Below the pieces are notes generated by a model, which was not told the origin of the DNA, did not search any database, and saw only the letters and a program-made list of their open reading frames with translations. The translations under genes were made by a program, and so were the position numbers. Below, one piece after another: positions 3,355 through 42,007 of a DNA stretch of 64,000 bases. Location of the stretch: positions 1 to 64,000 of the forward strand of contig PXPE01000001.1 of assembly GCA_003009795.1 (NCBI GenBank), read 5' to 3'. Position 1 is the first letter of the stretch, and every line of letters begins with the position of its first letter. This DNA is from Nanohaloarchaea archaeon SW_7_43_1. Its GTDB lineage: Archaea; Nanohalarchaeota; Nanosalinia; Nanosalinales; Nanosalinaceae.

Positions 3355-3816
3355 AGAGGAGGTGGAGTGGACACCACCGCTGGCATTCAGGGTATAAGTG
3401 TATCGGACGTAACAGGAAGATCGCTGCTGAATGTTGAGTGAGGAAAGTCCTGACACCCTACCCCCGACTCTCTGAGTTGCGGGTTTGAGAAAGCTGTAAG
3501 GCTTTCGAGTCCGTGAAGCAGGTGCTAAGACCTGTGTGCCGAGAGGCATCGGGATCAACCACAACCCGTGTAATAGCAGGGTAGCGAGATCCAAGGTCCG
3601 CAGAAACGCCACGGCTCCTATAATTTAGGAGAATCGCTGAAACGTGTTCCATCTCACGGTGCAAGCTTAGTACAGTGCAAGTGCGGATTGGAGGTAGGTC
3701 TCTGATCTTCGCCAAGTGAAATGTGTTCCACGGTCTTTCCCGTCCGGAAAGACTGTTGAGGAAGGATTTTTCATCCTTCGACATAGAACAGAATCGGGCT
3801 TACTCCCACCACCTCT
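3355..3816 (+). ncRNA. rnpB: RNase P RNA
   Basis: This is the catalytic RNA of RNase P, which matures tRNA 5' ends. The ends pair to form P1: AGAGGAGGTGG (3355-3365) with CCACCACCTCT (3806-3816), ten of eleven positions complementary. The CR-I signature GAGGAAAGTCC is at 3440-3450, and the CR-V signature ACAGAATCGGGCTTAC is at 3788-3803; in the family these two form P4. About 460 nt is at the long end for archaeal type A RNAs, partly because of extended internal hairpins such as the CCTTCCTCAAC region near 3760. A TATA-like CTTAAAT lies about 30 nt upstream, so it probably has its own promoter. The boundaries are inferred from P1. Confidence 0.93.
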
Positions 3817-4065: not shown

Positions 4066-4229
4066 GGGCCCGTAGCTCAGCTTGGACAGAGCAACCGGCT
4101 TCTAGAGTCCGCTTGGCTCAAAGTTTTCTGGATTTGAGAGCTGCACCACTGAACAGCAGTTAAACCAGGAGTTGGAGCGAACTGGCTTAGGTTACCGGTA
4201 GGTCGAGGGTTCAAATCCCCCCGGGTCCG
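4066..4229 (+). tRNA. tRNA-Arg (UCU) with an 89-nt intron
   Basis: The exons are 4066-4104 and 4194-4229 (75 nt mature). The acceptor stem is GGGCCCG/CGGGTCC with discriminator G; CCA is not encoded. The D arm, an ACCGG/CCGGT anticodon stem and a TTCAAAT T loop are present. The spliced loop reads C-T-TCT-A-A, giving anticodon UCU. The intron (4105-4193) sits between positions 37 and 38, the canonical archaeal site. A TTTAATA box lies about 30 nt upstream. The T stem contains one A-C mismatch, which is slightly unusual. Confidence 0.93.
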
Positions 4230-21070: not shown

Positions 21071-21208
21071 CGCCCAGACCAGGATTCGAACCTGGGACCG
21101 CCACGTATACTGCGACTTCACGGAAGTTAACTTGGCTTCCGAGACCATGCAGAACATGGATCTTTGAAGTTTAACAGCGTGGCGCTCTACCTACTGAGCT
21201 ACCTGGGC
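21071..21208 (-). tRNA. tRNA-Asn (GUU) with a 65-nt intron
   Basis: The mature tRNA (73 nt) is made from 21172-21208 and 21071-21106 on the minus strand. The acceptor is GCCCAGG/TCTGGGC with discriminator G; CCA is not encoded. The anticodon stem is CCACG/CGTGG with loop C-T-GTT-A-A. The intron 21107-21171 lies at position 37/38, the standard archaeal site, and can fold into a hairpin around its CGGAAG/CTTCCG elements. Confidence 0.94.
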
Positions 21209-33949: not shown

Positions 33950-34447
33950 GTGCAAAGGGATATTAGAGGATTTTTGAAAAGAATCTCAGCCTCTTCAGCC
34001 ATCGCCTTAACTATTCTAACTATATTCACATTTGCTTTTGATTCCGGATATCCAGGATCAATAAACCGATTAGCAGGTTTAGTTGGAATTACGAGACCTG
34101 CTTTACTTTCAGCCGCTTATTTAGTATCGGTTATCGTTATTTTCCTAATAGACAATAATTTCAGAAAAGACTCTGAGAAACCTGATTACTACACTGACAG
34201 GGAATTGAGACTTAATTACGTTTTCATAAATCCGATACTTGCAGGTTGGTTCTTTGTTGCAACGGCGTTTATGTTGAATAATGTTTTATTATCAGTTGGC
34301 GGATTTGTCCTGATACTGTATTCCGGCTTTAAATTAAGCCAAGATGAATTTCGAAAACCAGGCAGAATAGCGTTTTGTATTTTAAGCGCAGTTTCACTTT
34401 TCATAGCGTTTTATGTAGTCTTATTTAGTCTTATTATGATGACATGA
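33950..34447 (+). CDS. Membrane protein of unknown function
   Basis: About 165 residues with four or five membrane segments (AIALTILTIFTFAF, PALLSAAYLVSVIVIFLI, FVATAFMLNNVLL, IAFCILSAVSLFIAFYVVLF). The start is uncertain: GTG at 33950 or TTG at 33935, both close downstream of an AT-rich TTTAATTAAG that could be a TATA box. The open frame extends further upstream, but that part is the antisense of the small minus-strand gene. No family is recognised. Its 3' end overlaps the convergent HTH gene by 14 nt. Confidence 0.6.
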   Translation: MQRDIRGFLKRISASSAIALTILTIFTFAFDSGYPGSINRLAGLVGITRPALLSAAYLVSVIVIFLIDNNFRKDSEKPDYYTDRELRLNYVFINPILAGWFFVATAFMLNNVLLSVGGFVLILYSGFKLSQDEFRKPGRIAFCILSAVSLFIAFYVVLFSLIMMT

Positions 34448-34778
34448 ATATTGGCTCTACGAAAACATTCTCATGTATCATCTTTGGTTTCTTTCTATCG
34501 CCTTCTCCATTTTTGAAAGTTACTATGCTGCTTTCGGAGAGCAGTTTCAAGTCTTTTGATACTCCGCTGACGTCTCTGTCTACTTTTCTGGATAGTTCTC
34601 TAACTGATTCTATTTCTCCCTCTTTGATTATTTCTATTAGCTCCATTCTTTTCTCGGTGAAAACCTTTTGAGCGGTTTCTATGTTAAGCATTAGCACGTC
34701 TTCGTAACCTTGTTCTGCCAGGTCTTTTGCGAGCTGCATCTTCTTAGGTAGTTTTTCCTCCTCAGACAACTTTACCAC
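34434..34778 (-). CDS. Winged-helix transcriptional regulator (HVO_A0114-like)
   Basis: A 114-residue DNA-binding protein. After a helical N-terminal third comes a winged helix: MELIEIIKEGEIESVRELSRKVDRDVSGVSKDLKLLSESSIVTFKNGEGDRKKPKMIHENVFV, with recognition helix near DVSGVSKDLKLL. This arrangement matches the small halobacterial regulators related to HVO_A0114. It is transcribed away from the S-layer promoter region, which lies some 200 nt beyond its start, and could in principle regulate it; that is speculation. Confidence 0.78.
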   Translation of the reverse strand: MVKLSEEEKLPKKMQLAKDLAEQGYEDVLMLNIETAQKVFTEKRMELIEIIKEGEIESVRELSRKVDRDVSGVSKDLKLLSESSIVTFKNGEGDRKKPKMIHENVFVEPIFMSS

Positions 34779-34989: not shown

Positions 34990-35180
34990 GACCCAGAAAA
35001 GTTTTTGTATATAAACCATTTTTAACGGGTTAAAAGCAGTTTTGAAGGATTAAAAACCCTTTTTTGTCGCAATGGGATATTTTAAACAGTTCTAAACTGT
35101 CAAAGACGATTGGAAAACCGTTAGAATCCGTTCATAAACGGTTAAACACCGGTTTTGACCAAACCCTTTAAAAGGGTGAA
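34990..35180 (+). promoter_or_regulatory. Inverted-repeat-rich promoter region of the S-layer gene
   Basis: This AT-rich interval contains several inverted repeats: ACAGTT-CTA-AACTGT (35086-35100, perfect), an AACCGT...AACGGTT pair within 35116-35143, an AAAACCG...CGGTTTT pair over about 35113-35157, and ACCCTTT-A-AAAGGGT (35163-35177, perfect). The last overlaps the likely TATA box CTTTAAAAG. Many short TTAAA/TTTAAA blocks recur. The spacing predicts transcription start near 35195. The repeats look like regulator-binding sites; no protein can be named. Confidence 0.65.
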
Positions 35181-35194
35181 TGATGAGTGTATGT

Positions 35195-35472
35195 GTAAGG
35201 AACAGCGAAAAGTAATGCTGGGATCCACGACCCATTAATTAGTAATCCACGTACGTGTGGAAATGGCTTTTTTCGGGAATCGGGATCCCGCGGAGGAATG
35301 AAGCCTCCTCCGATAACGCACACTATATTATAATGTGTGCTCCGACAGGACTCTCCGATCGGAGACCCTGTGACCCGAAAGAAGGCTTCAGTGAGGCACG
35401 CATCTTGAGTGCCGCACTCAAAAAACAAGACGAAGCACCAAGAATACTCACCACACAGGTGAACACACAATT
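35195..35472 (+). ncRNA. Highly structured 5' leader of the S-layer mRNA
   Basis: About 275 nt separate the predicted transcription start from the S-layer ATG, with no open frame of merit. At least six hairpins can be drawn: CCAC-GTACGT-GTGG (35247-35260), the palindrome CGGGATCCCG (35281-35290), GGAGG/CCTCC (35292-35308), GCACAC/GTGTGC (35318-35340), ACAGG enclosing the palindrome CTCCGATCGGAG and closing with CCTGT (35345-35371), and TTGAGTG/CACTCAA (35405-35421). GC content is higher than in the flanking intergenic DNA. An AGGTGA ribosome-binding site lies about 10 nt before the ATG. It may stabilise or regulate a very abundant message. A separate ncRNA gene is the alternative. Confidence 0.7.
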
Positions 35473-38400
35473 ATGAAATCAATCAAAAAACTGAAATCAA
35501 CAGGTAAAGCTGTAGCAGGCTCTGCACTTCTTGTAGGAGCAACTCTTACAGGAGCGGCCGGTCTAGCTTCAGCTTCATCACATAACATGGATGACTCCGG
35601 ATCAATGGATCTCGGGGACTATCCGATGCCATTTGTAAACGAAGATGGCGAAGTCGATACAACAGTTGTAGTCGGCGAACAAGCAGCAACAGCAGACGTT
35701 GTTGGAGCAATTAACGTTGCCGGATCACTCGGTAACGCAGCCTTCATGGAAGAAGAAGTAGACGTAGACGTATCGGGAGCAACAGCTACTTACAGCGCAG
35801 AAGACGGAGAAACACTGAACAGAAGAAACTCAGATCTCTTCTTCGGACAAGGAACAGCAGCAGAGCAAGTAAGATTTGATGGACAGGACATCAATGCACT
35901 AGAAACAACAACTGTAAGCTCTGTAAGCAATGAAGAAGTAGAACTAGAACACGATCTTATGATTGGAGATCAGCCACAATCGTTCAATTCAGAACGTGGA
36001 GACGTTGACGATCCTGTACTACACATAAAAAATCCATCATCTGACCTCGATGTCAACAGCGACTATCTTCTACAAGGAGAAGTAGAGTTCGACGAAACAA
36101 TGGACTTTACAACCAATGAAGGAGATCCAAGTGATGGTGCAGATCAAATCCTTGAAGATGGAGAGACATTAGAACTATTCGGACAGGAGTACACATACTC
36201 CGACGAATCAGAAGCAGATGAACTTGTTCTTTACGGATCTAGCACAAGATTCGAAGCAGACACAGGAGAAACAACCACTGTAGAAGTTGATGGAGAAGAA
36301 CAAGAGCTTGGAGTTGAGTATGTACAAGAAGGAGAAAACTCAGCAACAATCACAGTCAACGGAGACACACAGTCAGTAGATGACGGAGAAACAATTACAG
36401 TAAACGGAGAAGACATTAGAGTATCCGACATCTTCAGAACCGGACCTGACGGAGAAGGAACAGTTAAGTTCTCAATCGGATCAGAAGAACTAGTAGTTAC
36501 AAACTCCGATGTAGAAGTTGACGGAGAATCCGTAGACGGAGTAGACGTAGCACTTGACGCAGAAAACGATGACTTCACAGCTGTAGACGGAATCTCATTT
36601 GCATTCGGAGCACAAGACTCTGATGAAAACCTAGTACAGGCAGGAGAAACCTACGAAACACCTGTATTCGGTCTAGAATTCCACTACGCAGGTCTAGCAC
36701 CGAACGCTGCAGAAGAACCAGCAGGAGAAATCGAAGTTGATGCAACAGAAGACGACGATGTATCACTGGACTACACAGCAGACTCAGGAGAAGACGTATC
36801 CCTAACACTGGGAGAACCTGATGATTCCGGAAACTTTGATCCCGGACCAGGCGATGAAGATGAACAAATCGCACAGTACGAAGGCCAACAAATCTCAGAA
36901 GACGATTACACAGTCCTCAACAGTAACGAAGAAGCAGTAATGGTCGAAGTTACAAACGTTGACGACTCAGACCTACAAAGCGGAGAAGATGATGGAGAAC
37001 TATCCGTATCACTTAGCAACGCAGCAACAGACGAATCAATGACAGTCGAAGAAGACGGACTGAACCTATCATCAGGAAGCGACGACCTCGAAGACGACGG
37101 AAGCTACGAGCTACAGTCAGAATCCATTGAAGGAATGGACTACGACGTCACATGGCATGGAAACGAACAAGTCAGCTTCGTTAGAAGTACAAGAGATGAC
37201 GGTCACGTACAACTGCATCCACACATGTACACAAACACAGGCGCAGCAGTAGCTGTAGACGCACCAGGAGCACTCGACGCAAGCGAAGCATTCGCCGTCA
37301 CAACAGAAGACTTCACATCTCCAGCAGAATCTCAGTCTATGACTGAAGATGGATCGGCAGGACAAGCAGACTTCCAGCTTGATTTGGGATCTATCTCAGG
37401 AACCGATTCCGATGATGTAGAGTTAAGGGTTGCAGGAACTACTGACGGTTCAAACACCTACGATGAAACAGTGACCCTCGATGACTCAGGTGATTCTGCA
37501 AGCTTCGGAACATCTCCATCAAATGTAGATGTATCAAGAAATGGAGAGGACACAATCGAGTTCACGCTATCAGCCAATTCAGGGGCACAGGTCACAGAGC
37601 TTGAAGTACAGGGAGCTGGAGCATCAGGAGACGTTGGTTACACACCTGGATCTGAAACTGAAGCTGGAGACTACACAACACTCACAGTAAGCCCAGCAAC
37701 AAGAACAGCTGATCTTCCGAGTGGAGTTGCATCAAATGATGCAACAGCAGATGTAGAGTTCCAAACTACGGAAGAACTTGGTAAAAGTGTAGACACGAAT
37801 GAGGACTTCGTTCAGTACACACTGGACGGAGCTCAAGGTGATGAGACAGTCAACCTTAGCCGAGGAAACACACAGGTTAACCACACAGCAGTTCTTGTAA
37901 CTGAGCCTGAAGACGACGAAGACGACGAACAGGCATACGTTGTTGAAGGTCGTACAACTGATTCCAGCCAGAATGTCGACGTGACATACACTGGTGGAGA
38001 AGATCTCAGAGATACTGAGAGCTTGGATGATGAAAGTGTAGAAGTTGGTTACGACTTTTACGGAGCTCACACCATGTTTGACACTGAGAACTCCGATACG
38101 GACAACTTCAAGCTACACCTTCCGGAAGCACAGTCAACAGCAGGTATGGCTGTAACTGGAGCTGATGGATCACTGTCAGCATCAGGAGCATCCTCAGGAT
38201 CAGCGATGACGATGAGTCCTACAGGATTCCCTGATTCAGCAGCTCTTGACTCAGAGGTTTCAGGATCTGACAGAGATCAGAACATGATCCTTGTCGGGGG
38301 ACCTGCGGTCAACTCATTGACTGAAGAGCTTGCACAGGAGAACAAGACCTGGACAAGAGACAACTACGATGAAGACACATGGGTACTTGACCTGGTAGAC

Positions 38401-38553
38401 GGATTCAGAGAAGGAACTCATGCACTGGTAGTCGCAGGACATTCAGCTGACGACACTCGAGCAGCTTCATCCTACATCAGCAACTACGCTGATAACGCAG
38501 ATGAACTAGCTGGCGAGACAACAGTCAACATGACAACTTCCGCTTCCCAGTAG
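35473..38553 (+). CDS. S-layer protein
   Basis: A 1026-residue, very acidic surface protein. A signal peptide (MKSIKKLKSTGKAVAGSALLVGATLTGAAGLASA) is followed by the N-terminal S-layer block DYPMPFVNEDGEVDTTVVVGEQAATADVVGAINVAGSLG. Long Thr/Asp/Glu-rich beta domains follow. The C-terminal half of the S-layer fold then resumes: NMILVGGPAVNSLTEEL, and ALVVAGHSADDTRAASSYISNY. This split N/C pattern is that of archaeal (methanococcal-type) S-layer proteins, with internal beta domains inserted. No C-terminal membrane anchor is visible. Codon use seems to change near 37330, from almost uniformly A-ending to mixed. It should be among the most expressed genes. It ends at a TAG followed by a hairpin terminator. 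Confidence 0.93.
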   Translation: MKSIKKLKSTGKAVAGSALLVGATLTGAAGLASASSHNMDDSGSMDLGDYPMPFVNEDGEVDTTVVVGEQAATADVVGAINVAGSLGNAAFMEEEVDVDVSGATATYSAEDGETLNRRNSDLFFGQGTAAEQVRFDGQDINALETTTVSSVSNEEVELEHDLMIGDQPQSFNSERGDVDDPVLHIKNPSSDLDVNSDYLLQGEVEFDETMDFTTNEGDPSDGADQILEDGETLELFGQEYTYSDESEADELVLYGSSTRFEADTGETTTVEVDGEEQELGVEYVQEGENSATITVNGDTQSVDDGETITVNGEDIRVSDIFRTGPDGEGTVKFSIGSEELVVTNSDVEVDGESVDGVDVALDAENDDFTAVDGISFAFGAQDSDENLVQAGETYETPVFGLEFHYAGLAPNAAEEPAGEIEVDATEDDDVSLDYTADSGEDVSLTLGEPDDSGNFDPGPGDEDEQIAQYEGQQISEDDYTVLNSNEEAVMVEVTNVDDSDLQSGEDDGELSVSLSNAATDESMTVEEDGLNLSSGSDDLEDDGSYELQSESIEGMDYDVTWHGNEQVSFVRSTRDDGHVQLHPHMYTNTGAAVAVDAPGALDASEAFAVTTEDFTSPAESQSMTEDGSAGQADFQLDLGSISGTDSDDVELRVAGTTDGSNTYDETVTLDDSGDSASFGTSPSNVDVSRNGEDTIEFTLSANSGAQVTELEVQGAGASGDVGYTPGSETEAGDYTTLTVSPATRTADLPSGVASNDATADVEFQTTEELGKSVDTNEDFVQYTLDGAQGDETVNLSRGNTQVNHTAVLVTEPEDDEDDEQAYVVEGRTTDSSQNVDVTYTGGEDLRDTESLDDESVEVGYDFYGAHTMFDTENSDTDNFKLHLPEAQSTAGMAVTGADGSLSASGASSGSAMTMSPTGFPDSAALDSEVSGSDRDQNMILVGGPAVNSLTEELAQENKTWTRDNYDEDTWVLDLVDGFREGTHALVVAGHSADDTRAASSYISNYADNADELAGETTVNMTTSASQ

Positions 38554-38689: not shown

Positions 38690-38938
38690 ATGTCAGAAGT
38701 GGATATTCCTCAAGATGTTTTCGATTCGATAAAGATACCGGAGCGAGAGAAAGAGAGAGAAATACGGCAGGAACTAGCTTTATCTCTTTACAACCGAGGA
38801 GCTCTTTCTTTTGGTAAGGCTAGACAACTTGCGGGAATGTCAAAAGAAGAATTTCACAGAGAACTTGGTGAAAGAGGGATAGAAAGACATTATACTGAGG
38901 AAGAGCTTGAAGAGGATCTGGAATATGGCCAGAAATAA
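38690..38938 (+). CDS. UPF0175 family antitoxin (cassette 1)
   Basis: An 82-residue protein of the UPF0175 (VapB-like) family: EIRQELALSLYNRGALSFGKARQLAGMSKEEFHRELGERGIERHYTEEELEEDL, a small helix-turn-helix followed by a toxin-neutralising tail. It is leaderless or nearly so, after a GATATTTTTAAGATATT promoter box. It overlaps the toxin gene by 14 nt, typical of an antitoxin-toxin pair with coupled translation and autoregulation. Confidence 0.88.
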   Translation: MSEVDIPQDVFDSIKIPEREKEREIRQELALSLYNRGALSFGKARQLAGMSKEEFHRELGERGIERHYTEEELEEDLEYGQK

Positions 38939-39398
38939 TATAGTTGTCTCGGACACTTCTCCATTGCTGAATCTTGCTTTCATTGATAGACTTGAACTTC
39001 TTGAAGCGCAGTTCGGAAAGATAAGGGTTCCAGAGCAAGTATGGGAAGAGATACAAGAAGGAGAAAAAGGTAAAGATCTCCTTGATAACAGAAAAGGTAT
39101 TCTTATTGAAATAGTTAAAGTAGAAGAAGAAAGTCTCTACACAGAGCTAAGACAAAAACTAGACAAAGGCGAATCAGCAGCCATCACTCATGCAATAAAG
39201 TCAAATGCCGATCTTGTATTATTAGATGAAAAAGAGGGAAGGCAAACAGCCCGGAAACACAATCTTGAAGCAACAGGAGTAATAGGAGTATTAATTAAAG
39301 CCAGCAAAAACGAAAAAATAGACTTAAAGCAAGATCTGGACAATCTCAAAGATGAAGGATTCTGGATTTCGGAAGAACTTTATAGGAATATTATCTAA
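38925..39398 (+). CDS. DUF3368 PIN-like toxin (cassette 1)
   Basis: A 157-residue PIN-fold ribonuclease. Acidic residues are seen in VVSDTSPLLNL (D), VPEQVWEEI (E), LDKGESAAITHAI (E) and LVLLDEKEGRQTA (D). The DUF3368-specific ATGVIGVLIKA follows. The ATG at 38925 (MARNNIV) is preferred to one six codons earlier because the conserved region begins directly after it. It is the established partner type of UPF0175 antitoxins. The gene looks intact. Downstream sequence leads to repeat R1. Confidence 0.88.
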   Translation: MARNNIVVSDTSPLLNLAFIDRLELLEAQFGKIRVPEQVWEEIQEGEKGKDLLDNRKGILIEIVKVEEESLYTELRQKLDKGESAAITHAIKSNADLVLLDEKEGRQTARKHNLEATGVIGVLIKASKNEKIDLKQDLDNLKDEGFWISEELYRNII

Positions 39399-39511
39399 AA
39401 GGAATTTCCTCTCGCTACCTTAATTCTTTGCGGAATTGAGAAAAAGCTTCCAAACCCTATTCGCACAACCCGCATCCGAGATTAGTGCTTTGTTACATGG
39501 TTGATCTAACT
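39399..39511. other. Intergenic DNA after cassette 1
   Basis: No gene seen. It ends where the S-layer terminator-like repeat R1 begins. Confidence 0.6.
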
Positions 39512-39583
39512 CGAGGAAGAAAAGAAGTTGTAGATTAACGGGCTCAACCCGTCATTTTTCCTTTTCTATTTTCTCTTTCTCCA
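39512..39583 (+). repeat. Repeat R1: copy of the S-layer 3' flank and terminator
   Basis: It repeats the S-layer 3' flank almost exactly: CGAGGAAGAAAAGAAGTTGTAGA, then TTAACGGGCTCAACCCGTCA and TTTTTCCTTTTCTATTTT. The main difference is one short insertion (AAG). It separates TA cassettes 1 and 2. Confidence 0.9.
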
Positions 39584-39627
39584 GCACTACCGAAACTGAT
39601 TTATGGATGATAGCTCATTATATATTC

Positions 39628-39873
39628 ATGAACGAGAGAATAGAGATAGACCCAGAAGTGATGACCGGTAAACCGGTTATCAGGGGCACCCGGATACCAG
39701 TACACAAGATTGTGGAGCTCCTCTCCCAAGGAATGACGGCAGAGGATCTACTTGAGGAATACCCTGCAATTGAAAAAGAGGATGTCAACGCTGCACTAGA
39801 TTACGCCGCAGAAACCCTGGAGGAGGAATCCGTCTTCAAGACAGGGGGAGACGACCTTGAAATTCATAGTTGA
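39628..39873 (+). CDS. DUF433 antitoxin (cassette 2)
   Basis: An 81-residue DUF433 protein: ERIEIDPEVMTGKPVIRGTRIPVHKIVELLSQGMTAEDLLEEYPAIEKEDVNAALDYAAETL read as the classic PxxxxGKPxIxGTRIxV start plus helix-turn-helix. Such proteins are antitoxins to DUF5615 PIN-like toxins. The ATG at 39628 (MNERIEI) is chosen; a TATA box CTGATTTATGG lies about 25 nt upstream. It overlaps the toxin by 17 nt. Confidence 0.9.
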   Translation: MNERIEIDPEVMTGKPVIRGTRIPVHKIVELLSQGMTAEDLLEEYPAIEKEDVNAALDYAAETLEEESVFKTGGDDLEIHS

Positions 39874-40204
39874 TGAAAGCACAGGTAAGAAGGTTGCAGA
39901 TTTCCTAAATGAAGATTACGACACCGTTTTCGTGGGCGAAGAGATGTTGGGCGCCTCCGACAGCGAAATAATTAAGAAAGCGAGGCGAGAAGACAGGATT
40001 ATAGTAACCAACGACAAAGACTTCGGACAGCTAGCGGTCAAAGACGGTCGGGAAGCCAAAGGAATACTCCTGCTAAGACTCAAACTAGAAACACCGCAGA
40101 ACAAGATAAAGATTACAGAACAAGTACTAGCCGATCACAGAGAAAAACTGGAAGATAATCTAGTAGTAGCGAAAGAAGACAGCACAAAGGTAAGACCGAT
40201 CTAA
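39857..40204 (+). CDS. DUF5615 PIN-like toxin (cassette 2)
   Basis: A 115-residue PIN-like protein: MKFIVDESTGKKVADFLNEDYDTVFVGE (first Asp), GASDSEIIKKARREDRIIVTNDKDFGQL (second acidic cluster), and the GILLLRL strand. The start is a TTG inside the antitoxin gene; coding similarity to the family begins at that residue. Probable ribonuclease toxin neutralised by the upstream DUF433 protein. Complete and intact. Confidence 0.88.
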   Translation: MKFIVDESTGKKVADFLNEDYDTVFVGEEMLGASDSEIIKKARREDRIIVTNDKDFGQLAVKDGREAKGILLLRLKLETPQNKIKITEQVLADHREKLEDNLVVAKEDSTKVRPI

Positions 40205-40217
40205 ACAAGTAATGGCA

Positions 40218-40297
40218 TCCGCTTCCCAGTAGGGAAGCAAAAGCCTTAGATTCGTGTGCTTGACCCGTTATTTCTCTTGTATTTTTCTCTCTAAACC
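40218..40297 (+). repeat. Repeat R2: degenerate copy of the S-layer 3' end
   Basis: TCCGCTTCCCAGTAG repeats the last S-layer codons and stop, followed by GGAAGCAAAAGCCTTAGA, a decayed hairpin (GTGCTTGACCCGT) and TTCTCTTGTATTTTTCTCTC. It is more diverged than R1, suggesting a greater age. Confidence 0.85.
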
Positions 40298-40370
40298 TGA
40301 CCGAAAAATGCAGAAAACACTTACCCAGAGATCGAAAAGTTATTAAATATTGCTAACTATTGTTAAGAAT

Positions 40371-40691
40371 ATGTCAAGTGCAAGCACATCCTTCAGCATA
40401 CCTGAAACTATGAGGGACGAAATAGATGTTTTGGTTGAATCAGGGGAATACAGTTCTCGGAGCGACGTCATGAGAGACGCGTTTAGAACCTTCCTGAGAA
40501 AGAATCCTGAAAAACGTATACGTACAACCGTAGAACTCTACAAAAACGGAAAAGTATCCCTCATGAGAGCTGCAGAACTCGCAGAAATGAATCTAGAAAA
40601 CTACAAGGAAGAACTCAACGAAAGAGGTATCACGGTCAAGACCAACAAAGGAGACGAGGAAGAAAAGGAAGCAGTTGAAGAGAGGCTTTAA
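40371..40691 (+). CDS. Antitoxin with ribbon-helix-helix and UPF0175-like parts (cassette 3)
   Basis: A 106-residue protein. N-terminal ribbon-helix-helix (SFSIPETMRDEIDVLVESGEYSSRSDVMRDAFRTFL, DNA-binding strand at SFSIP) is joined to a UPF0175-like helical segment (TTVELYKNGKVSLMRAAELAEMNLENYKEELNERGI) and an acidic tail. The combination gives an operator-binding and a toxin-binding half. The ATG at 40371 follows an AATATTGCTAAC region with a TATTAAATATT TATA box 25 nt upstream. It precedes the PIN toxin by 5 nt. Confidence 0.85.
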   Translation: MSSASTSFSIPETMRDEIDVLVESGEYSSRSDVMRDAFRTFLRKNPEKRIRTTVELYKNGKVSLMRAAELAEMNLENYKEELNERGITVKTNKGDEEEKEAVEERL

Positions 40692-40696
40692 CCCCG

Positions 40697-41178
40697 ATGT
40701 TGATAATGGACACAGATGCAGCTAGTGTTCTGGCCAAAGGCAAACTACTGGATGAAACACTGAAACTTTTCAAAAACCATAAAGTGGTAATAACTCCAAA
40801 GATTAAGGAAGAGCTAGGAAAACCGATAGAGCACGGCTACGGATACCCGAGTAGAATATTCGACAAAATCAATACTGAAACTCCTAATAAAAAAGAAAGG
40901 AAACAGTACCGAGAATGGTTCAACGAACAAACAGTAGACAAAGGAGAACTGGAAGCCATAGCAATGGCAAAATCAAGAGACGCAATCTTCTTCACAATGG
41001 ACCAAAAAGCATCCAGATACGCAGAAAAACAAATGTTCAAACACAAGCCTTCAACAACCTAGCAAAACTACTACACAAAAAAGAAATAACATCCAAGGAA
41101 GAACTCAAAAACTCTATCAAACTAATAGAGCAAAAAGACAACCGAAAAATTAACTTCAAACTCAAAAATCTATAAACA
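40697..41178 (+). pseudogene. PIN toxin broken by a frameshift (cassette 3)
   Basis: The reading frame from 40697 gives a PIN domain (MDTDAASVLAKGKLL, VVITPKIKEEL, DKGELEAIAMAKSRDAIFFTMDQKASRYAEK) but ends early at 41062 with an unrelated tail. The expected C-terminal helix region (AFNNLAKLLHKKEITSKEEL, then KLIEQKDNR) continues in another frame from about 41040 to 41178. A single-base shift near 41035-41045 would restore a full-length toxin. It may be inactivated, an assembly error, or, less likely, programmed frameshifting. Confidence 0.75.
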
Positions 41179-41215
41179 CCAAGGAAAATAAGCTGGGAGA
41201 CAAAAATAAAAAAAA

Positions 41216-41270
41216 ACAGATTAACGGGCTCAACCCGTCAATTTTCTTTCATATTTTTCTGACCAAAACT
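41216..41270 (+). repeat. Repeat R3: terminator part of the S-layer 3' flank
   Basis: AACAGATTAACGGGCTCAAC, CCGTCAATTTTCTTTCATAT and TTTTCTGACC repeat the S-layer terminator hairpin and the following T-rich tail. The coding-end portion is reduced to AGCTGGGAGA about 25 nt upstream. Confidence 0.85.
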
Positions 41271-41299
41271 GATTTATTATTCTAGAGGAAATTTTTTCC

Positions 41300-41593
41300 A
41301 TGACTACAGATACTAGGGAAAGAGCGACTGAAATGGCAGACGAACTTGGTTTCAGTGACGAGGGAGAGCTTATGGACGTTGCTGTCGATACATTATTAGC
41401 TGCAAGACCTGATATTAGAAAGGATTTAGCCATCGCACTTTACAGGGATAACAGGATCTCATTAGATAGAGCTGTAGAGATTGCAGGTATGGAACGGAAA
41501 GAGTTCAAAGAAATACTTAAAGAGGAAAACATTGAGAGAGAATCAGGTTCTCTAGATCAATCGGTCAAGAATATTGCCGATTACAGCGGTTGA
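41300..41593 (+). CDS. UPF0175-like antitoxin (cassette 4)
   Basis: A 97-residue protein. N-terminal part TRERATEMADELGFSDEGELMDVAVDTLLAARP, then the UPF0175-like IRKDLAIALYRDNRISLDRAVEIAGMERKEFKEILKEENIERE, close in layout to cassettes 1 and 3. The TATA box ACTGATTTATTATTC precedes it by about 25 nt, part of the repeated R3 module. It ends 6 nt before the toxin gene. Confidence 0.85.
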   Translation: MTTDTRERATEMADELGFSDEGELMDVAVDTLLAARPDIRKDLAIALYRDNRISLDRAVEIAGMERKEFKEILKEENIERESGSLDQSVKNIADYSG

Positions 41594-41599
41594 GGCATT

Positions 41600-42007
41600 A
41601 TGCTAGTAGCAGATACAGATTTTCTAGGTGCTTTTCTGAAAGCAAAATCAGTTGATATTATTCTTGATATCTTTGATGAGAATAAAATTGTGATACCGAA
41701 ACAGGTAGAAGAAGAGATTCTAGAAGAACTAGGCAGAAGATTCGACAATAGAATAGAAGTAAGAAATACCAAGCCGATACAGGATTTAAATCTAGGGGAA
41801 GGAGAAAGAGCAGTAATATCTCTGGCAACAAAAGAAGATCTGATTCTCATGAACGATCGAAAAGCTTGTGGAAAAGCCGAAGAATTGAATTTGAAACCAG
41901 TTACGGTACCCGGATTTCCAAAATTTGTAGAAAAAGAAGTAGGCTCTGAGAAAACACGGGAAATAGCAGATAAAATACGGGTTAAAGATAATTACATTTT
42001 TTCTTAG
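41600..42007 (+). CDS. PIN-domain toxin (cassette 4)
   Basis: A 135-residue PIN-type protein (MLVADTDFLGAFLKAKSVDIILDIFDENKIVIPKQVEEEIL, then LNLGEGERAVISLATKEDLILMNDRKACGKAEELNLKPVTVPGFPKFV). Acidic residues D5/D7, E38, E76 and D91 fit a PIN nuclease. It is intact and paired with the preceding antitoxin. It resembles the cassette 3 toxin in its first half. Confidence 0.85.
   Translation: MLVADTDFLGAFLKAKSVDIILDIFDENKIVIPKQVEEEILEELGRRFDNRIEVRNTKPIQDLNLGEGERAVISLATKEDLILMNDRKACGKAEELNLKPVTVPGFPKFVEKEVGSEKTREIADKIRVKDNYIFS

Follow-up and report, generated by a model that had tools for sequence, protein, structure and literature searches.

A covarying, lineage-specific leader RNA precedes the main S-layer gene in one family of nanohaloarchaea

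The main S-layer mRNA of Nanohaloarchaea archaeon SW_7_43_1 begins with a cis-acting structured 5′ leader RNA, which comparative sequence analysis places at predicted positions 35196–35472 of a 64,000-nt window (the whole stretch of DNA that was analyzed, lying within a single-contig 957-kb genome; features are on the forward strand unless stated). The family core, as defined by comparison with relatives, consists of a long helix (P1), within which lie a hairpin (P2) and an uninterrupted tract of six or seven uridines (U6–7), together with a further hairpin (P3) and a pseudoknot that most genera possess. The leader is almost certainly a real, uncatalogued, lineage-specific RNA family—that is, the general category, a structured mRNA leader, is already known, whereas this RNA family is new. 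Because compensating mutations preserve the pairing, the leader, a predicted regulator, very probably sets the amount of coat protein made. Few proteins of archaeal cells are as abundant as those of the S-layer, and the RNA family described here, supported by covariation and absent from existing catalogues, belongs to the S-layer leader of ectosymbionts whose surface touches their hosts.

The S-layer gene (35473–38553) encodes a protein of 1026 residues matching PF05124 S_layer_C (E 9.7e-20), with homologues in 35 of 60 genomes. Its ATG is backed by a Shine–Dalgarno (SD) sequence (GGTGA, 35458–35462) and by homologues with a common N-terminus, and its 3′ end carries U-rich runs. Among named relatives, Nanohaloarchaea archaeon SW_4_43_9 (L002) is the nearest, its S-layer protein being 88% identical over the first 184 residues; a protein search of the genome contigs with the S-layer protein returned one relative only. 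From the position of the TATA box (TTTAAAA, 35167–35173), transcription is predicted to start at about 35196, giving a leader of about 277 nt, in agreement with the approximately 275 nt proposed in an earlier, sequence-only reading of this DNA. Each of the 13 full-length leaders has a TATA box at the corresponding position, with predicted leader lengths of 195–339 nt. The accompanying claim that most genes here have short or no leaders was gauged only roughly, through the upstream gap, the median of which is 85 nt among 63 ORFs versus 694 nt for the S-layer gene.

A conserved upstream promoter element (CCGTTCATAAACGGTTA, 35128–35144) lies 22 nt ahead of the TATA box and has no second copy in the window; 12 of the 13 S-layer promoters of the family have such an element, 21–23 nt ahead of TATA. 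Inspection of 35117–35144 together with the relatives showed that the S-layer promoters of this nanohaloarchaeal family have a common element, NNGTTCRTGAACGGTTARA, ending 21–23 nt 5′ of TATA, which is probably an activator site. The divergent gene at 34434–34778 (reverse strand) encodes an HVO_A0114-type winged-helix regulator (PF25212), a candidate regulator of the S-layer promoter.

The minimum free energy (MFE) of the leader was calculated to be −93.5 kcal/mol, compared with −67.4 kcal/mol (sd 4.5) for dinucleotide shuffles (z −5.77, with none of 200 shuffles as low), and the MFE structure contains at least seven hairpins, consistent with the six or more claimed earlier. Twelve of the 13 full-length leaders, including that of the window, are more stable than their shuffles (z −2.1 to −5.9), the exception being G011 (z −0.5). 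A common order of parts was observed: a 5′-proximal hairpin (35203–35220), the P1 5′ strand (GGGATCCACGACCC, 35220–35233), the P2 hairpin (35247–35260), a spacer of 1–6 nt, the terminator-like U-tract (U6 here, 35268–35273), a spacer of 0–2 nt, the conserved core that forms the P1 3′ strand (GGGAAUCGGGAUCCCG, 35275–35290), and the P3 hairpin (CGGAGGA/UCCUCCG, 35291–35312), followed by variable hairpins, an A-rich stretch, the SD sequence (GGTGA in most leaders), and the ATG. The 5′ hairpin is clear in most leaders (none was seen in G017, and it is weak in G010 and G012), and the 5′ hairpins were jointly significant in a stability test (−7.3 versus −3.9 for shuffled sequences, sd 0.56; minimum of 500, −5.6), as were the P2 hairpins (−7.2 versus −3.9, sd 0.55; minimum of 500, −5.6). 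U6–7 occurs in all 13 leaders at +69 to +112, with U8 in one duplicate copy, and the remaining U-runs of these leaders are mostly of 2–3 residues.

P1 combines one nearly invariant strand, GGGAAUCGGGAUCCC, with a partner strand that drifts; across the leaders the core takes the form GGGA(A)(U)CGGGAUCCC. Since MAFFT failed to align either the P1 5′ strand or P3, duplex energy was used to assess P1, and an alignment with the two strands spliced together to assess P3. The P1 duplex has a mean energy of −22.0 kcal/mol over 12 leaders, versus −13.6 kcal/mol (sd 0.72) for shuffled upstream regions, and the best of 1000 joint shuffles reached −15.8 kcal/mol; the pairing in G011 is individually weak. 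Because the P1 3′ strand hardly varies, P1 yields little double-sided covariation, and for the same reason a swap control is uninformative for this helix. In the exact sequence of the window, the MFE structure contains a competing helix (35265–35277 with a stretch from 35374) rather than P1, which is better than the P1 state by about 1 kcal/mol with the pseudoknot left uncounted. This competitor is not conserved, since the MFE structure of G001, like G000 a member of the genus of the window's organism, is the P1 state.

Covariation evidence for conserved pairing comes from P3, in which five of the seven pairs are altered on both sides (13 cells), with a covariation score of 0.447 versus 0.163 that was reached in none of 500 shuffles and was destroyed by sliding the partner strand. 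The 3′ partner of P3 was located by pairing, a slightly favorable choice, and the strands of the pseudoknot were likewise picked by complementarity; swap and shuffle controls are therefore quoted. When downstream halves were exchanged among species, the real P3 score was reached in none of 5000 trials. The scan for P3 left out short loops and so missed it in G008, G009, and G015, in which P3 is visible by eye and in the spliced alignment. In the pseudoknot, UGAAGCC in the P3 loop (35299–35305) pairs with GGCUUCA (35384–35390), with a duplex energy of −9.6 kcal/mol; the match between loop and downstream strand is species-specific, its observed mean being reached in 1 of 2000 permutations. The pseudoknot is present in most genera and absent in genus g9 (G009 and G015). 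Thus, pairing is conserved among relatives, the absence of which had been named as grounds for abandoning the structured-leader proposal, and the sequence-only reading had not described the most telling features, namely P3 covariation, the pseudoknot, and the conserved U-tract.

That reading had pointed to two perfect palindromes, CGGGATCCCG (35281–35290) and CTCCGATCGGAG (35353–35364), as potential sites of RNA dimerization. Both are present, and the dimerization role has been set aside as unsupported and unneeded, because the first, which is invariant and lies inside the core, is the 3′ strand of the long intramolecular helix P1 formed with 35220–35233, and the second is limited to G000 and G001, in which it is part of an extra, genus-specific hairpin (35345–35371). 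Another extra hairpin, GCACAC/GUGUGC (35318–35340), is also specific to this genus and absent in other genera.

A DNA search with the leader showed that many genera share a conserved block of 28–50 nt just 5′ of the S-layer gene. The pattern U5+ N0–4 GGGA N0–3 GGGAUCCC matched in 13 of the 28 genomes of the phylum, with one site each apart from G017, in which two sites accompany two S-layer gene copies; the reversed control gave no match. The element was thereby located at 14 loci in 13 genomes from 10 genera of a single nanohaloarchaeal family (f1, to which the relatives G001–G018 belong), and at every locus it lies between the promoter and the start codon of the same gene, always an S-layer gene. 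A covariance model recovered these 14 loci, all with E ≤ 9e-16, whereas the next match was at 0.018; since these loci trained the model, it is its specificity, not its scores, that counts. Of the family's six further genomes, most either are incomplete or carry the S-layer gene at the end of a contig. The S-layer paralogues read in G003, G005, and G007 have short leaders without the core, and the element is absent from the sister families and from about 380 other archaea. Among 394 archaeal genomes, the sole pattern site outside the family (in G343) was judged from its sequence to be a chance match, and viral spread was rejected, the 12 pattern matches in IMG/VR being judged chance from their context and none having a P3-like hairpin after it. 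Sister families were also noted to have S-layer leaders that are long and structured but unrelated to the element in sequence, at G020:C70 and G026:C43 (z −4.6 and −6.5, respectively, against mononucleotide shuffles); these possibly perform the same function via different RNA.

The expectation that the leader belongs to no recognized RNA family was borne out: no family in Rfam 15 covers it at the gathering score, the best matches at E ≤ 10 being weak chance ones, and a literature search of partial coverage found no report of a nanohaloarchaeal S-layer leader element. Archaeal RNase P RNA, considered on account of the pseudoknot, was rejected, as the best RF00373 match of the genome is at 3405–3813 and not in the leader. 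An antisense ORF at 35168–35470 (100 aa) was likewise dismissed, the antisense frames in relatives having no stable length (47–108 aa), as were upstream ORFs, the positions of leader ATGs varying among relatives.

With respect to function, the leader is tentatively read as a promoter-proximal switch setting S-layer output, a proposal held with somewhat less than even confidence. The decision on whether the transcript is completed would be made about 70–110 nt into it. As polymerase leaves the U-tract, the RNA would expose P2 and then the U-run, the combination that serves in archaea as a terminator signal recognized by aCPSF1; the invariant core would emerge over the following 15–17 nt and could pair back to form P1 and close the U-tract within an internal loop, with P3 and the pseudoknot forming afterwards. 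With P1 formed, read-through and a robustly folded 5′ end would be favored, whereas with P1 not formed, or with a factor on the core strand, the U-tract would be open to aCPSF1 and premature termination would follow. This switch is favored because of the invariance of one P1 strand, the lone U6–7, its spacing of 0–2 nt from that strand, the presence of an aCPSF1 gene (TIGR03675, 810.9 bits), and stepwise folding of the growing RNA, in which P2 and an open U-tract appear first and P1 closes once the core has been made. Furthermore, a terminator-like site, P2 plus U6–7, lies inside all 13 leaders, there is one element per genome across the 13 genomes and always at the S-layer leader, and the sense strand of the coding DNA of the window has few runs of T≥6 (10 versus 41 runs of A≥6). 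In Methanococcus, aCPSF1 binds U4–7 terminator tracts (PMC8716108), and in Saccharolobus promoter-proximal recruitment of aCPSF1 has been described and premature termination proposed (PMC8448881). Against the switch, the U-tract was predicted by folding to stay mostly unpaired within P1, so that enclosure by an internal loop may fail to keep aCPSF1 away; the spacing between P2 and the U-tract is variable, the window's own MFE is not the P1 state, and a terminator seems out of place in a gene with very high expression. If the model holds, leader folding would determine whether transcription stops early or runs through the whole S-layer gene, making an attenuator from archaeal termination parts, and the end of the U-tract, a single nucleotide, would be the predicted site of transcript 3′ ends. 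It is less likely than not, though conceivable, that the leader represents a previously undescribed kind of riboregulator in archaea, in which the invariant strand of a pseudoknotted leader folds back over an aCPSF1-type U-tract immediately after being transcribed.

Close behind the switch, and similarly tentative, is a role in mRNA stability or translation, in which the 5′ hairpin, P1, P3, and the pseudoknot would form a compact cap against 5′-end-dependent decay of an abundant mRNA and present an A-rich, weakly structured landing zone to the ribosome, with the U-tract serving, with no switching, as a structural part or as a binding site for an Lsm/SmAP-like protein. Such a role is consistent with the joint significance of the 5′ hairpins, with the composition of the last 40 nt before the ATG (33–50% A, with an SD sequence in most leaders), and with the long structured S-layer leaders of the sister families, which do without the core sequence; moreover, leaders that are long, structured, and conserved, with no assigned role, are found on the slmA1 S-layer mRNAs of Methanosarcina (PMC3361143), and bacterial S-layer mRNAs are unusually stable (PMC8056022). 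However, any sequence would suit a stability cap, and the near-invariance of one P1 strand and of U6–7, while the partner strand drifts, is left unexplained. A further reading is a riboswitch, the core and pseudoknot binding a metabolite or ion, or a thermometer that melts, either of which would alter expression: near-invariant nucleotides are typical of aptamers, and the compact pseudoknotted core lies beside a U-tract resembling an expression platform. This reading is nevertheless improbable, as the leader matches no Rfam riboswitch, serves a single gene whereas riboswitches usually serve several, and lacks the pseudoknot in genus g9. The suggestion that the leader senses temperature or salt by masking the ribosome site fares no better. 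In the window, the SD sequence is paired in a small hairpin (CACC-ACACA-GGUG, 35449–35462) that is not conserved; an SD-masking hairpin was found in only 4 of 13 leaders (pairing is strong in G000, G001, and G007 only, and G015 has a potential hairpin of CACC with GGUG), and this lack of conservation speaks against a simple thermometer or SD-sequestering switch.

A promoter, hairpins, and a U-tract also make up the anatomy of a small-RNA gene, and termination at the U-tract would release a separate trans-acting RNA of about 75–110 nt, linked to the S-layer gene merely through a shared promoter. This is quite unlikely, however, the best conserved parts (the core, P3, and the pseudoknot) lying 3′ of the U-tract, outside such an RNA, and the element being always attached to an S-layer gene. 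Very improbable is a DNA-level element, in which TTTTTTTCCGGGAATCGGGATCCCGCGG would be a protein-binding site within the transcribed region and the RNA pairing incidental: the palindromic character and near-invariance of the core speak for it, but both sides of P3 carry compensatory changes, each species keeps its two pseudoknot strands matched to one another although the distance between them varies, and complementarity has preserved the P1 partner strand.

The Lactobacillus slpA leader is a stabilizing leader of a bacterial S-layer mRNA. Such bacterial leaders share with the element an abundant surface-layer message, the output of which is aided by stability (PMC8056022), but the likeness lies in this message rather than in any demonstrated sequence or structure, and the conserved U-tract and pseudoknot are features of the nanohaloarchaeal leader. 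The Methanosarcina slmA1 5′ UTR is similar in being long (154 nt in M. barkeri), in belonging to the predominant S-layer paralogue, and in having predicted structures (PMC3361143); compared by description, conservation there consists of sequence identity between close species, whereas here it consists of covariation across 10 genera. Archaeal aCPSF1-dependent terminators have a comparable U4–7 tract (PMC8716108), though at gene ends rather than inside a leader and flanked by the strands of a conserved helix. Bacterial attenuators and archaeal riboswitch-like leaders (preQ1, crcB; PMC4247193) have in common with the element a structured leader, a terminator-like site, and a pseudoknot, whereas the element has no known aptamer, occurs at a single gene in a single archaeal family, and is a regulator by prediction. 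For attenuators and riboswitches in Archaea, a 2014 transcriptome study found no direct in vivo support (PMC4247193).

Several other features of the window were observed. The match to RNase P RNA at 3405–3813, just 3′ of the 23S gene, is a candidate that may be unusual, since it scores 36.8 bits, below the RF00373 cut-off of 84. A Group I intron is located inside the 23S rRNA gene (1841–2091), and tRNA matches at 4066–4229 and 21071–21208 greatly exceed the length of a tRNA, which suggests that they contain introns. Finally, 3′ of the S-layer gene (38690–42000), several tandem small gene pairs were seen by eye to resemble toxin–antitoxin modules.
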